Positions 26,883 through 45,702 of a stretch of 64,000 bases of DNA are shown piece after piece. Position 1 is the stretch's first letter. Every line of letters begins with the position of its first letter. This stretch comes from Astropecten irregularis (Eukaryota > Echinodermata > Asteroidea > Paxillosida > Astropectinidae). The stretch lies in the NCBI GenBank assembly GCA_963971285.1, contig OZ020252.1, positions 17,273,662 to 17,337,661 of the forward strand, written 5' to 3'. The translations under genes and the position numbers were made by a program. The notes beneath the pieces are model-generated. The model did no database searches. It was not told the origin of the DNA and worked only from the letters and a program-made list of their open reading frames with translations.

Positions 26883-27089
26883 AGAACCATCTTATGGTGA
26901 AGACAGATGTTATTGCAGTACACTACATGTACAGTATATTGATACATTCGATTTATCTAGGCACGGTTCTAATAGAAGTACTGTACATGTATAGCCGCAA
27001 AGAGATGCATGACTACAACATGCATTCATGTATAGTTATTTTTTTCACCAGTTATTATTTCCCATTCGTTTTATCGATCGCCCAAGTGC

Positions 27090-27960
27090 TCGACATGTAC
27101 TCAGCAAGAACTCGGCAGCCACACGACAACCAATCGCGGCACTCGGCAAGCACTCGGCAAGCACTCGGTAAGAACTCGGCAAAAACTTGACAAGATCTCG
27201 GCAACCACACGACAACCACTCGCGGCACTCGGCAAGCACTCGGCAAGCACTCGGCAAGCACTCGGTAAGAACTCGGCAAGAACAGGGCATGTACTCAACA
27301 AGCACTCGGCAAAAACTTGACAAGAACTCGGCAACCACACGACAACCACTCGCGGCACTCGGCAAGCACTCGGCAAACACTCGGTAAGAAGTCGGCAAGA
27401 ACTTGACAAGAACAGGGCATGTACTCAACAAGCACTCGGCAAAAAAGACAAGAGCTCGGCAACCACACGACAACCACTCGCGGCACTCGGCAAGCACTCG
27501 GCAAGCACTCGGTAAGAACTCGGCAAGAACAGGGCATGTACTCAACAAGCACTCGGCAAAAACTTGACAAGAACTCGGCAACCACACGACAACCACTCGC
27601 GGCACTCGGCAAGCACTCGGCAAACACTCGGTAAGAAGTCGGCAAGAACTTGACAAGGACAGGGCATGTACTCAACAAGCACTCGGCAAAAAAGACAAGA
27701 GCTCGGCAACCACACGACAACCACTCGCCAAGCACTCGGCAAGCACTCGGCAAGCACTCGGTAAGAACTCGGCAAGAACTCGGCAAGAACTTGACAAGAA
27801 CAGGGCATGTACTCGCCAAGCACTCGGCAAGAACTTGCCAAGAACTCGGCATGCACTCGGCAAGCACTCGGCAAGATCGGCATGAACTTGACAAGAACTC
27901 GGCAAGCTAGCAGTCGGCAAGTACTCGGCCGTGCACTCGGCACTCGTGCTTGACTATTGA
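27090..27960. repeat. Minisatellite with 11-bp unit and higher-order structure
   Basis: The unit is CACTCGGCAAG (11 bp), with variants such as AACTCGGCAAG, AACTTGACAAG and CACTCGGTAAG. A marker, AACAGGGCATGTACTC, recurs at 27281, 27411, 27528, 27658 and 27799. The spacings are therefore 130, 117, 130 and 141 bp, an alternating two-part higher-order unit of about 247 bp. A second marker, GGCAACCACACGACAACCAC, recurs in step. Because 11 is not a multiple of 3, all frames of the minus strand stay open with an 11-residue peptide period. I do not regard these as genes. Confidence 0.9.
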
Positions 27961-28791
27961 AAGGGCAAGTACTCGTGTAAGAGGCCACGCCAGGGGAGTT
28001 AGCATCTGTACTCGAAATCGTCCATCACGCGGTACTCAAAATAATACTCGATACTCATCAGAAAAAATCGTATATCACACAACGGTGGACAATACGTCGA
28101 AAGCTTAAGAAAAACACAATAGTGCAAGGGAACAATACTGTAATATTATTGATAATGAACATTCTGAACACAAAAATAATCAGCTGATGCTGGCCATGAG
28201 TTCAAGGAAAGTTGAACGGTGAACGGTGAACTTTTGTTTTCTCCGTGGGGGACCTTGAAGTCAATCCATGGACATTGCTAATGACCCGAGGCCAGTACCG
28301 GTAGTTTACTAATGAGCACGTTGACCTATCACCCAAAAAAAGACATTTCATAATAATACACACAAAAATGACATGATGACAGGAGCTGACAGGTGAACAC
28401 AATGACTAATATCAACAGGAAGACATCCCAAAACAATAACAAATAGACAGAAAAAACAATATTAAACTAGCCAAATTAACAAAGATAATTGACAATTGGC
28501 TCCGGATAGACCAAAGTTCCAGAATTGATGTAGTCTTGGTTTAAGACGTTGTTGCTGTGGATATTCGAACCTATGAACTGACCCGCACTGACGTGAACCC
28601 GCACACACGTACATGTAAATAAGGACCTGTCCGCACGGACGTGCGTGCGGATCACTGGTCCGTGCGTTCGAGAGGTATGTACGTACGTTTCAGTTCGGGT
28701 ATTAATCGGTTCGCACGTTTGAGTATCCACACCAACAACGTCGTGAATCAAGACTACACTATTGATGCGGTTTATACAATTTTAAGTTTTG

Positions 28792-34403: not shown

Positions 34404-34968
34404 TTAAAGGGCATGTACAACATAATCAACATTAGTCAACAAACAAACATAAATCTTCGTGAAATAACCACAAGGGAAACTGACTGGGTTTTTTTTAAGT
34501 CATTGAAAAGTGAACAAAGAAAAATTGACTGCAGCGGGATTCGAGCCGGCGACCTCCTGAATACCGTACAGGCGCTCTACCAACTGAGCCATCCAGCCCT
34601 ATAAATAGGGTCAATTTTTCTTTGTTCACTTTTCAAAACATAAATCTTCACAGATTGACGTATAACTTATACAGGGTATGAAGACGGTAATGATAGAAAC
34701 ATACTGTGCCAATCTTTCTGCCTGAAATGCTGTATTTATCAAAGAAAGGGAGTAAAATCAAAAACCAAAACATATTTCTGATCTTGGAAAGATCAAAAAT
34801 GAGACAGCAGGGCCTTTTCTCACACCATTTGGAGTATCAATTGCAACGAGTTTCGATCAATTGAGCTGAAAATGTCACAGGTTTGTATTTATTGATTTAT
34901 TCCATGACAAATTGAATTATGAGCAGCCTGCAGATTCTCTGTCACCCAATGTTATATATGCCCTTTAA
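34404..34968 (-). mobile_element. TTAA-2 element, copy 5, split by a tRNA-like retroelement
   Basis: The left terminus TTAAAGGGCATGTACAACAT (34404) and the right terminus ATATGCCCTTTAA (ends 34968) are inverted copies. Between them is TTAA-2 type text (GAAACATACTGTGCCAATCT, GAAATGCTGTATTTATCAAA, TTGAGCTGAAAATGTCACAG). The element is interrupted at 34459-34635 by the tRNA-like insert. The insertion duplicated AAACATAAATCTTC (34445-34458 and 34636-34649). Without the insert and one duplicate it would be about 374 bp, a normal size for the family. Confidence 0.75.
34459..34635 (-). mobile_element. tRNA-like SINE-type retroelement, copy 1 (fold-back form)
   Basis: On the minus strand 34598-34527 is a tRNA-like sequence. 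The acceptor arms pair GGCTGGA with TGCAGTC (one mismatch more than in the other copies). The A box TGGCTCAGTTGG is intact and the B box is GGCTCGAATCC. Two 27-bp arms, 34503-34529 and 34610-34636, are exact inverted copies that flank the tRNA-like part. The insert sits in a TTAA-2 element between 14-bp direct repeats (34445-34458 and 34636-34649), the kind of duplication left by LINE-driven retrotransposition. It is not a working tRNA gene: the anticodon-loop position 33 is C instead of T, and the T stem has a C-C mismatch. Confidence 0.75.
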
Positions 34969-35269
34969 CTAAGTTGTGTCACAAATACATGTATATTTTA
35001 CACGGATTTAGGCAATAATTTTGGCAAGCTGCAGAGTTACTCGCGCAATACCCAAAAATATACCCCAAAATTCACGACGGCAAGAGATGTTTTGACTGCG
35101 ATAGAGATCTGTATTTACATGAACACTCACACGAAGGAACATTAATCATTATACACAGTCACAAACACATTTCGTCTCGTGTCAAGTTTGTCTAGCAACA
35201 CCATAATACATGAACCCAAGGGCATTGCCTGGTGTTACTAAAGGTGAGCAAATCATGGGCGTAGATCCC

Positions 35270-35324
35270 GGGGGGGGGGGGGGGCTAGGGGGGGTTACAA
35301 CCCCCCCCCCCCCCCCCCCCCCCC
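35270..35324. repeat. G15 / G7 / C24 homopolymer cluster
   Basis: A run of 15 G (35270-35284) is followed by CTA, 7 G, TTACAA and 24 C (35301-35324). The G and C runs can pair as one hairpin, and either strand could form a quadruplex or i-motif. The lead-in GGGCGTAGATCCC looks like the start of a dispersed repeat. Run lengths here are likely to be uncertain in any assembly. Confidence 0.85.
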
Positions 35325-35968
35325 AGGTTTTCACTTTTTATAAAAAAATATTTTGTGCACAAACGTATGGAAGAACGACCCAGCTACACAGGTTTGAGGA
35401 CGTGTTTACACTACTGGAGCCAATCGTTAGCTTTTTAACATGCTTCGTGTCTTACTGATGGACATGGTGGGGTGCTAATGACTGTTACGATGGGCAAAGA
35501 AATCGTAATGTAAATCGGAACTGATTACGCGAACTTTGTTTCATTTTGTTTCTTGTGTAATCGTTGGCGCGGTTTACCCAGTAAAATGACTGTGTTGGGA
35601 CTAAACTTTGTATATCGTCAACTTGGGATGCATTCCACGAAAAAGAACATTGACCCCTAAACTATGCAAGTTCGTGAACCATTCCCATCCTAGAAAAACA
35701 AACTACGAAAGACTCATATTTGTCCTTAATCCTTATTTCAAGTGAACTTTCACAGAGGTGAAAAGAAAAACCATAAAATTTGGAATGAAGAGAACAACGC
35801 GTTTGATTTTCAGCTATTGGCGACTTTAGGCCTATTTGAGGACCCCCAGTGAATGTATAGAACTACTTCCCTATGTAAAGAGCATTTCAGGCTATGTAAT
35901 GGAAGAAGATTTCATTTCATTGATTTTTATAGTCTAGTCACACGTCACCGAGTTTCTGTATAATGTCT

Positions 35969-44467: not shown

Positions 44468-44526
44468 GTGAGATTTGTAATCATCAACTAACCACAAAGG
44501 AAACTGACTGAAATTAAAGTCATTGA

Positions 44527-44598
44527 AAAGTGAACAAAGAAAAATTGACTGGAGCGGGATTCGAACCGGCGACCTCCTGAATACCGTACAGGCGCTCT
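44527..44598 (-). pseudogene. tRNA-like sequence in composite element, unit 1
   Basis: On the minus strand: acceptor GGCTGGA/TCCAGTC (7 pairs, one G-T), D arm GCTC...GAGC, anticodon arm CCTGT/TCAGG with loop ACGGTAT, T arm GCCGG/CCCGC. Taken literally the anticodon would be GGT (Thr). However, position 33 is C where tRNAs have U, the anticodon stem closes with T-T and the T stem has a C-C mismatch. The internal polymerase III boxes (TGGCTCAGTTGG and GGTTCGAATCC) are intact. I read it as the promoter head of a retroelement, not a translating tRNA. Confidence 0.7.
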
Positions 44599-44869
44599 AC
44601 CAACTGAGCCATCCAGCCCTATGTTGGTGTTGACCCCAATAGTCAACCATCTTTGTTCGTTTGGCAGTCAGAAGCCATGAAACCACGCACACACCGCCAC
44701 ACCCCAGGGATCGTTTCAATGATACACGCAACAATGCTGCAACCTGGGAACGGTACATGGGGGATCACTCAAAGAGGATACGGCTTTTTAATTATTATAT
44801 TTGTGAAATAACCACAAGGGAAACTGACTGAGTTATTTTAAGTCATTGAAAAGTGAACAAAGAAAAATT

Positions 44870-44941
44870 GACTGGAGCGGGATTCGAACCGGCGACCTCC
44901 TGAACACCGTACAGGCGCTCTACCAACTGAGCCATCCAGCC
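44870..44941 (-). pseudogene. tRNA-like sequence in composite element, unit 2
   Basis: Identical to the unit 1 sequence at 44527-44598 apart from a change in the anticodon loop (ACGGTGT instead of ACGGTAT). The A and B boxes are intact and the same structural defects are present. The near identity of the two tRNA-like parts, against more divergence outside them, suggests recent duplication or gene conversion. Confidence 0.7.
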
Positions 44942-45702
44942 CTATGTTGGTGTTGACCCCAATAGTCAACCATGAAATTAAAGTCATTGAAAAGTGAACA
45001 GTCAGTCAGAAGTCGGAAGCCATGAAATCACGTACACACCGCCACACCGTGAGATTTGTCTTTGCGTTGTTTTATTGTTTATATATATTATTTCCTGAAA
45101 GAAATTTAGACTTGGTTCTGTACCGAAGCACGACTTTATACCTCACACGTCATCTTAAAATAATGTTTGAGGGGGAAAAAAATGTACTATAGCTATTTCT
45201 CTAATACGGTTTCGGTCGTTTCAAGGAACTGAATCAATCTGGGTCAATACGCTATCGCATTCCAAGCACTCGACCGAGCTAAAAGCTGTGTATAAGCCCA
45301 TCACCTCGCTCCCAATCAGCCTAAAATGAGTCATAAGTCCCTATCATGCAGTCGTGCCACTTCAAGGGGAGAAGAGCCATCCCTGGGCCTGGGGAATCGA
45401 TTAGACACGTCGGCTTGATATCAAAGCAGACGTCATATCTACCCGTGCTCTCTCGGCGATGTACACTATAGATAACTATATATCATCCCATTACAAGTTC
45501 AATGCTAATCTCTGCTCTATAAGTTCGGCCCAAGATTTCCTTTAAAGGAATACTTTATTATACAGCAAGTGTGAACTTGACAAAACCTCCCTGAAACTCC
45601 ATATTACTGTTTGTACAGCCACTCTCAGACTTGTTGTCCAATTTGGTCGACCAGTGACGGTTTGGGCGATGTAGCAGCACAGCCATGATCATTATAAACG
45701 TC

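Follow-up and report, generated by a model that had tools for sequence, protein, structure and literature searches.

The window, which is the whole stretch of 64,000 nucleotides analysed here, carries at 44468-45059 a composite insertion consisting of two units of about 225 bp each, both with a tRNA-like gene, and a 109-bp centre between them. One exact 11-bp repeat, GTGAGATTTGT, encloses both units and the centre (Table 1). The earlier note on this DNA had described two units with A and B boxes, the centre and the single flanking repeat, and had proposed that all of these moved as one piece. These claims are borne out, as both tRNA-like genes were recovered by ARAGORN and Rfam, the boxes can be read in both, and one duplication surrounds the whole. 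The units are not "tRNA-headed", as they had been called: the tRNA genes sit on the minus strand, and in the RNA sense a unit consists of a leader, the tRNA, TTTTT and a tail. The 5' unit carries a replaced stretch that is similar to the linker behind the tRNA.

Table 1. Coordinates of the two element copies and their parts in the window
Feature	Position	Strand	Basis or remark
Second, independent element copy	34453..34636	-	one tRNA unit ending at site A, plus inverted piece
tRNA of second copy	34526-34598	-	part of the tRNA unit
Inverted piece of second copy, 27 bp, ending at site B	34610-34636		
Left copy of target-site duplication, 11 bp, GTGAGATTTGT	44468..44478	.	identity to 45049-45059
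3'-terminal unit (RNA sense)	44479..44703	-	outer edge 44479 at site A; terminal-tail variant GATGATT
Site B, approximate (monomer 95-109)	44510..44524	-	position inferred by alignment; end used by other copies
TTTTT directly behind tRNA 1, pol III terminator-like	44540..44544	-	sequence
tRNA-Thr-like gene 1	44546..44618	-	ARAGORN, Rfam; A box ~44600-44611, B box ~44557-44567 (read off sequence)
"Centre", 109 bp, remainder of the 323-bp monomer	44704..44812	-	comparison of loci
5' unit (RNA sense)	44813..45048	-	variable 5' end at outer edge 45048
TTTTT directly behind tRNA 2	44863..44867	-	sequence
tRNA-Thr-like gene 2	44869..44941	-	ARAGORN, Rfam; A box ~44923-44934, B box ~44880-44890 (read off sequence)
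Right copy of target-site duplication, 11 bp	45049..45059	.	identity to 44468-44478

The second copy of the element, which the earlier note does not mention, is flanked by a 14-bp exact duplication at ~34445-34458 and 34636-34649 that overlaps the element ends in part. Two other features of the window were recorded in passing. Cys/Leu-rich repetitive open frames at 27045-28024 on the minus strand, recognised by eye, are likely a minisatellite, and a long G-run/C-run inverted repeat lies at 35267-35327.

A 22-base core of the tRNA has 2,877 exact matches in the 476-Mb genome and a 21-base pattern of the tail 915, against no match for the reversed pattern in either case. A DNA similarity search of the genome with the element gave at least 75 matches. 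A unit together with the centre forms a 323-bp monomer (46.7% GC; numbered from the tRNA 5' end in the RNA sense), copies of which follow one another head to tail in arrays that hold as many as five full tRNA genes. The centre is the rest of this monomer and is matched, wholly or partly, in 37 of the 39 loci compared (the exceptions are L033 and L035); it is not a separate module. In 39 complete monomers, between 0 and 6 alignment sites deviate from the majority base, and these copies are young because the differences are so few; older copies, at about 92%, are also present (L091, L092). The fold energy of the monomer is unremarkable (z = -0.76, 100 shuffles).

A 323-bp monomer is too short for an ORF with reverse transcriptase (RT) and GIY-YIG domains, and no ORF of at least 120 aa was found in L048, a locus that bears the element three times. 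L048 was considered as an autonomous form, having a 2,644-bp period and sharing the 21-mer; it proved to be a tandem-duplicated stretch with an element copy in each unit. The tandem unit at this place (G000 C1:37453000-37462900) is repeated with 99.9% identity.

Both tRNA-like genes of the insertion at 44468-45059 have the anticodon GGT and resemble tRNA-Thr. They score 52.8 and 51.2 bits, well above the Rfam cutoff of 29, and both have consensus A and B boxes. Inspection by eye reveals C instead of U at position 33 and a U-U mismatch in the anticodon stem. The element tRNA is probably not a working tRNA, because the anticodon loop is abnormal and the stem contains the mismatch. Among 122 full tRNA copies in the fetched loci, the A box is exact in 115 and the B box in 117, and TTTTT stands behind the tRNA in 117. 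The exact boxes suggest that the genes are competent for pol III transcription. The TTTTT behind each tRNA should stop pol III transcripts before sites B and A (see below). Full-length RNA is therefore hard to derive from pol III, and the template may come from read-through transcription or from pol II. Shared variants per site amount to 0.08 in the tRNA, 0.25 in the linker and tail, and 0.06 and 0.08 in the remaining parts of the monomer. By this measure no conservation of the tRNA beyond that of the leader regions was found, and selection on the tRNA itself is unsupported because its variants are rarer than those of the linker and tail, yet not rarer than those of the rest of the monomer.

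The 3' ends of the insertions are fixed at two places of the monomer, site A at about 144-148 and site B at about 95-109, both windows having been set after the data were seen. Alignment of the flanks of genomic copies, as the earlier note had suggested, uncovered exact duplications of at least 10 bp around 24 of 40 insertions in a first set, as opposed to 11 of 1,560 mismatched flank pairs, and around 14 of 18 in a second set, as opposed to 4 of 306 mismatched pairs; in the latter, L083 duplicates L081. The second set comprises 16 small loci, L049 and L050, all from contig C1 among the matches listed, and the second copy in the window. As the reversed patterns have no match and the duplications are far above the level of the mismatched pairs, chance is excluded as an explanation of the element. 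The target duplications have a mean length of 13.3 bp and are 83% AT (n=24), compared with 60% AT for the window; the commonest length is 13 bp.

In the 37 insertions with an exact duplication of at least 10 bp, to which the end count is confined, 57 of 58 3' ends fall at A or B. Two-part head-to-head insertions with such a duplication combine one A end with one B end in 20 of 21 cases, whereas A+A and B+B were each found in none. The remaining one, L079, combines A with the 3' end of the tRNA. With equal odds for A and B, 20 mixed pairs out of 20 would have a probability of 1e-6, a value to be read with the under-sampling of B-B insertions (but not of A-A insertions) that arises because the locus queries contained site A. 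Insertions with duplications below 10 bp were left out of the count, namely 16 of the first set (L011, L016, L019, L021, L024, L028, L029, L030, L032-L036, L038, L044 and L046) and four of the second (L077, L078, L084 and L085). Also left out were L001-L008, which repeat other loci; L083, the reverse-complement duplicate of L081; L076, which is cut by the locus end; an extra piece next to the counted one in L031; and the element copies in L048, L051, L052, L057, L058, L069, L071, L072 and L091-L094. Among the 16 of 40 and 4 of 18 insertions that have no exact duplication of at least 10 bp, L029 has a 13-bp duplication in a wider flank comparison and ends at B, and some others end elsewhere: L019 at monomer position 187, L046 at 157 and 197, and the inverted part of L024 at 173.

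The 5' ends vary along the monomer, and many copies have an inverted piece. For 49 copies the distribution of 5' ends does not depart from a uniform one (KS p = 0.47), with a small cluster noticed near positions 230-238. Tandem units and a head-to-head inverted piece occur together inside one target duplication. One and the same insertion, with its duplication, is present in both L081 and L083 (C1:4.79 Mb and C1:5.50 Mb), oppositely oriented, and represents either an inverted segmental duplication or an artefact of the assembly.

The same genome contains a Penelope-like element (PLE), designated PLE-A, with which the element was compared; the comparison covers this one PLE family and no LINE. 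PLE-A is 3,267 bp long and has an intact ORF of 921 aa with an RVT_1 domain (28.7 bits, just below the Pfam cutoff of 29.6) and a GIY-YIG domain, and a partial tandem of it was found. Its copies end at p3201-3213 or at p3260-3267, and in each of the head-to-head copies L056, L068 and L073 one end is of the first kind and the other of the second. Of 15 PLE-A copies, 9 are flanked by exact duplications of 10-15 bp, a count that has no mismatched-pair control; these average 12.3 bp and are 78% AT (n=9). PLE-A and the element are thus alike in their two-site ends, duplication length and AT-rich targets. Furthermore, a hammerhead-like stretch of PLE-A (stem II, GAAACGCGTC), which has no Rfam match, ends about 21-33 bases before site B, and the tRNA of the element ends 22-36 bases before site B. 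The hammerhead-like stretch in PLE-A therefore has the position of the tRNA in the element. PLE-A is unproven as the partner because no sequence similarity was detected between it and the element, the start-site region included.

Several loci combine sequences of the two kinds or relate to PLEs in other ways. In L093, hammerhead-like PLE repeats, four of them and an incomplete fifth, are joined to a piece of the tRNA element that ends at B; there is no clean target duplication, and the junction is possibly a template switch. The tandem hammerhead-like PLE units of about 60 bp at L093:525-785, to which small pieces in L066, L067 and L074 are related, possibly represent a second PLE-dependent family of short repeats. 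L057 and L058 were examined as chimeras of a PLE and the element and were found by eye to be nested insertions with their own target duplications. In L051 an element fragment stands tail-to-tail with a PLE relative. L071:2398-4035 (G000 C24), L054 and L059 contain an ORF with B-box and NHL matches that ends in a PLE-like GIY-YIG domain with about 73% DNA identity to PLE-A; the ORF is perhaps a host gene with a captured PLE endonuclease. L070 (G000 C94, a 24-kb contig) looks bacterial, with three long ORFs of which one, UvrC-like by eye, has a GIY-YIG match, and probably belongs to a symbiont or a contaminant in the assembly.

Published work describes similar behaviour of PLEs. In PMC11167929, a lizard PLE initiates internally at two sites of its RNA, with the interval between the sites forming the tail in the genome, and cuts both strands of AT-rich DNA; two internal RT start sites with an optional tail between them are given there as a PLE signature. 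For rotifer PLEs, PMC3846280 reports pseudo-LTRs in direct as well as inverted orientation, together with an optional tail of 31 bp and duplications of 8-10 bp.

Taken together, these observations make the copy at 44468-45059 very probably a single insertion of a retroelement that is non-autonomous and was mobilised by PLE machinery. In the genome the element consists of head-to-tail 323-bp monomers, each with a leader, the tRNA-Thr-like gene, TTTTT and a short AT-rich tail that holds sites B and A, which would be the two start sites of reverse transcription. To judge from the insertions, a sense RNA longer than one monomer, either multimeric or circular, would be copied into AT-rich DNA opened by a staggered break of about 13 bp. 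In the two-part copies, A would serve as the start for one DNA strand and B for the other. Synthesis would proceed upstream across at least one tRNA monomer and stop at varied places, giving the variable 5' ends and the inverted pieces, and leaving a single target duplication around the whole insertion. The protein might be supplied by a PLE such as PLE-A. The tRNA, standing in the place of the hammerhead, may act as an anchor through its structure, offer a site for processing or serve as a pol III promoter, and the arrays may arise from repeated passage around one monomer in a circular RNA or from tandem transcripts.

Some arrays provide information on the template. Alignment site 191 is uniform in all 10 of 10 arrays that have two or more complete monomers, a result reached by 5 of 100,000 shuffles. 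Variants recur along arrays, as does a TTG deletion in both monomers of L016 and an A insertion in all four monomers of L010 (three with AAA added, one with two added A), and single monomers also differ inside arrays, for example in L019. The uniformity fits copying around one monomer as well as homogeneous tandem sources. In the window copy, which is a heterodimer, and likewise in L032, L034 and L036, a circular monomer template is disfavoured because the units differ in tail; these four copies suggest a linear heterodimeric template. The same four form a sub-group by their tails, the terminal tail being of the GATGATTA type and the array-internal tail of the CACGAATA type, and this pairing of unlike tails also suggests a heterodimeric source.

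The 11-bp duplication had been taken in the earlier note to speak against an LTR element and for mobilisation by a LINE or a PLE. It does point away from LTR elements, and the further details favour Penelope over LINE. That note had considered a dimeric SINE. A SINE of tRNA origin, dimeric or multimeric, that a LINE mobilises and whose inverted pieces result from ordinary twin priming would account for the exact A and B boxes of most copies, and the long target duplications, 5' truncation and 5' inversions fit LINE retroposition. Twin priming by LINEs leaves scattered internal ends, whereas the element has two alternative fixed ends, both internal, and in 20 of 21 two-part insertions the inverted piece has its far end at the site not used by the other part. 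In addition, no poly(A) or simple-repeat tail was seen at the 3' ends inspected, the tRNA is internal and followed by TTTTT, and the dimer is just one form of arrays that carry as many as five tRNA genes head to tail. A SINE of this type is accordingly quite unlikely. The miniature LTR element with a tRNA in its LTRs, which the earlier note had likened to Cassandra, has in its favour that two tRNA-bearing direct repeats flank a centre and that animal Helenus families exist, some with tRNA-Thr-like sequences (PMC10886601). The same paper describes Helenus (TRIMp3) as two LTRs around one internal region with a PBS, a PPT and a duplication of 4 bp in animals or 5 bp otherwise. The commonest duplication of 13 bp and the lack of a two-LTR architecture place the element outside this class; an array can hold as many as five tRNA units, so that the centre is no internal region, and the 5' ends are variable and often inverted. 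Duplication length, array number and the 57 of 58 ends at A or B rule out a Helenus/TRIM element, and such an origin is scarcely credible.

A strict retrozyme, that is, a hammerhead-bearing circular-RNA element whose ribozyme was missed, would agree with the monomer length, the tandem state, the GC content and the length of the duplications. Metazoan retrozymes have tandem monomers of 150-450 bp with less than 50% GC and duplications of more than 4 bp; they bear type I hammerheads and were shown to exist as circular RNAs, with PLEs proposed as helpers (PMC7229834 and PMC7761336). However, an Rfam search up to E = 5 of 901 bp spanning the element revealed no hammerhead or other ribozyme family, CTGANGA is absent from either strand of the monomer, and the collected loci contain no core with a paired stem II. 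A missed ribozyme is very improbable. The Penelope option is the best supported of those that had been raised, and the SINE and LTR options are not supported.

Mobilisation by PLE machinery can be extended to the role of the tRNA, tentatively and with an outcome that is on balance doubtful: the tRNA may have taken over from the hammerhead as RNA module in a retrozyme-like cycle driven by a PLE. Host tRNA enzymes might cut or hold tandem transcripts at the tRNA, a circle of monomer RNA or a multimer might form, and the PLE protein might copy round it from both A and B. L079 fits this reading, as its template borders fall at the tRNA ends. The template of one strand of this two-part insertion ends at about monomer position 74, just behind the tRNA, and that of the other strand covers about positions 1-70, i.e. 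the tRNA itself. As a single case, it hints that cuts were made at both ends of the tRNA.

Short retroelements with a pol III gene ride on LINEs, as do SINEs, or on LTR elements, as do Cassandra, Helenus and Ajax. If the description given here is true, riding on Penelope-like elements would be a third route. Among the matches listed in a literature search, mostly open access, no tRNA-bearing element mobilised by a PLE appeared in titles or abstract openings. The many young, near-identical copies with readable ends would form a record of how DNA synthesis of the PLE type starts; in the counted two-part insertions both start sites would be used, one per strand. With a tRNA in the place of the hammerhead, the unsolved role of the hammerhead in PLEs could be tested by comparison. 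The elements also add thousands of tRNA-like genes to the genome and will confuse tRNA counts.

Among the known systems, tRNA-derived SINEs, including dimeric ones, have a tRNA-derived region with A and B boxes and long target duplications. The element differs from them in its internal tRNA followed by a terminator, the lack of a visible poly(A) or simple tail, its higher multimers and its two fixed ends. Helenus, Cassandra and Ajax (TRIMp3) share with the element a small-RNA gene with pol III boxes in the repeated unit of a short non-autonomous element, but these have LTR-type integration with duplications of 4-5 bp and PBS/PPT, whereas the element has PLE-type ends. The metazoan (non-LTR) retrozymes are likewise non-autonomous, with tandem monomers of a few hundred bp and duplications of more than 4 bp; in the element no hammerhead was found, and a circular RNA is putative. 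Compared with autonomous PLEs, the element lacks an ORF with a telomerase-like RT and GIY-YIG and has no match to PLE-A; its monomer is 323 bp long, and a tRNA-like gene occupies the place of the hammerhead, which was not found. With the PLEs that have a C-terminal GIY-YIG domain (Penelope, Poseidon_Ac and the Pen families of Adineta vaga) it shares the tandem or partial-tandem state, the head-to-head inverted pieces, the optional tail between two start sites, duplications of a similar order (8-10 bp in rotifer PLEs, 10-15 bp in PLE-A) and the AT-rich targets.
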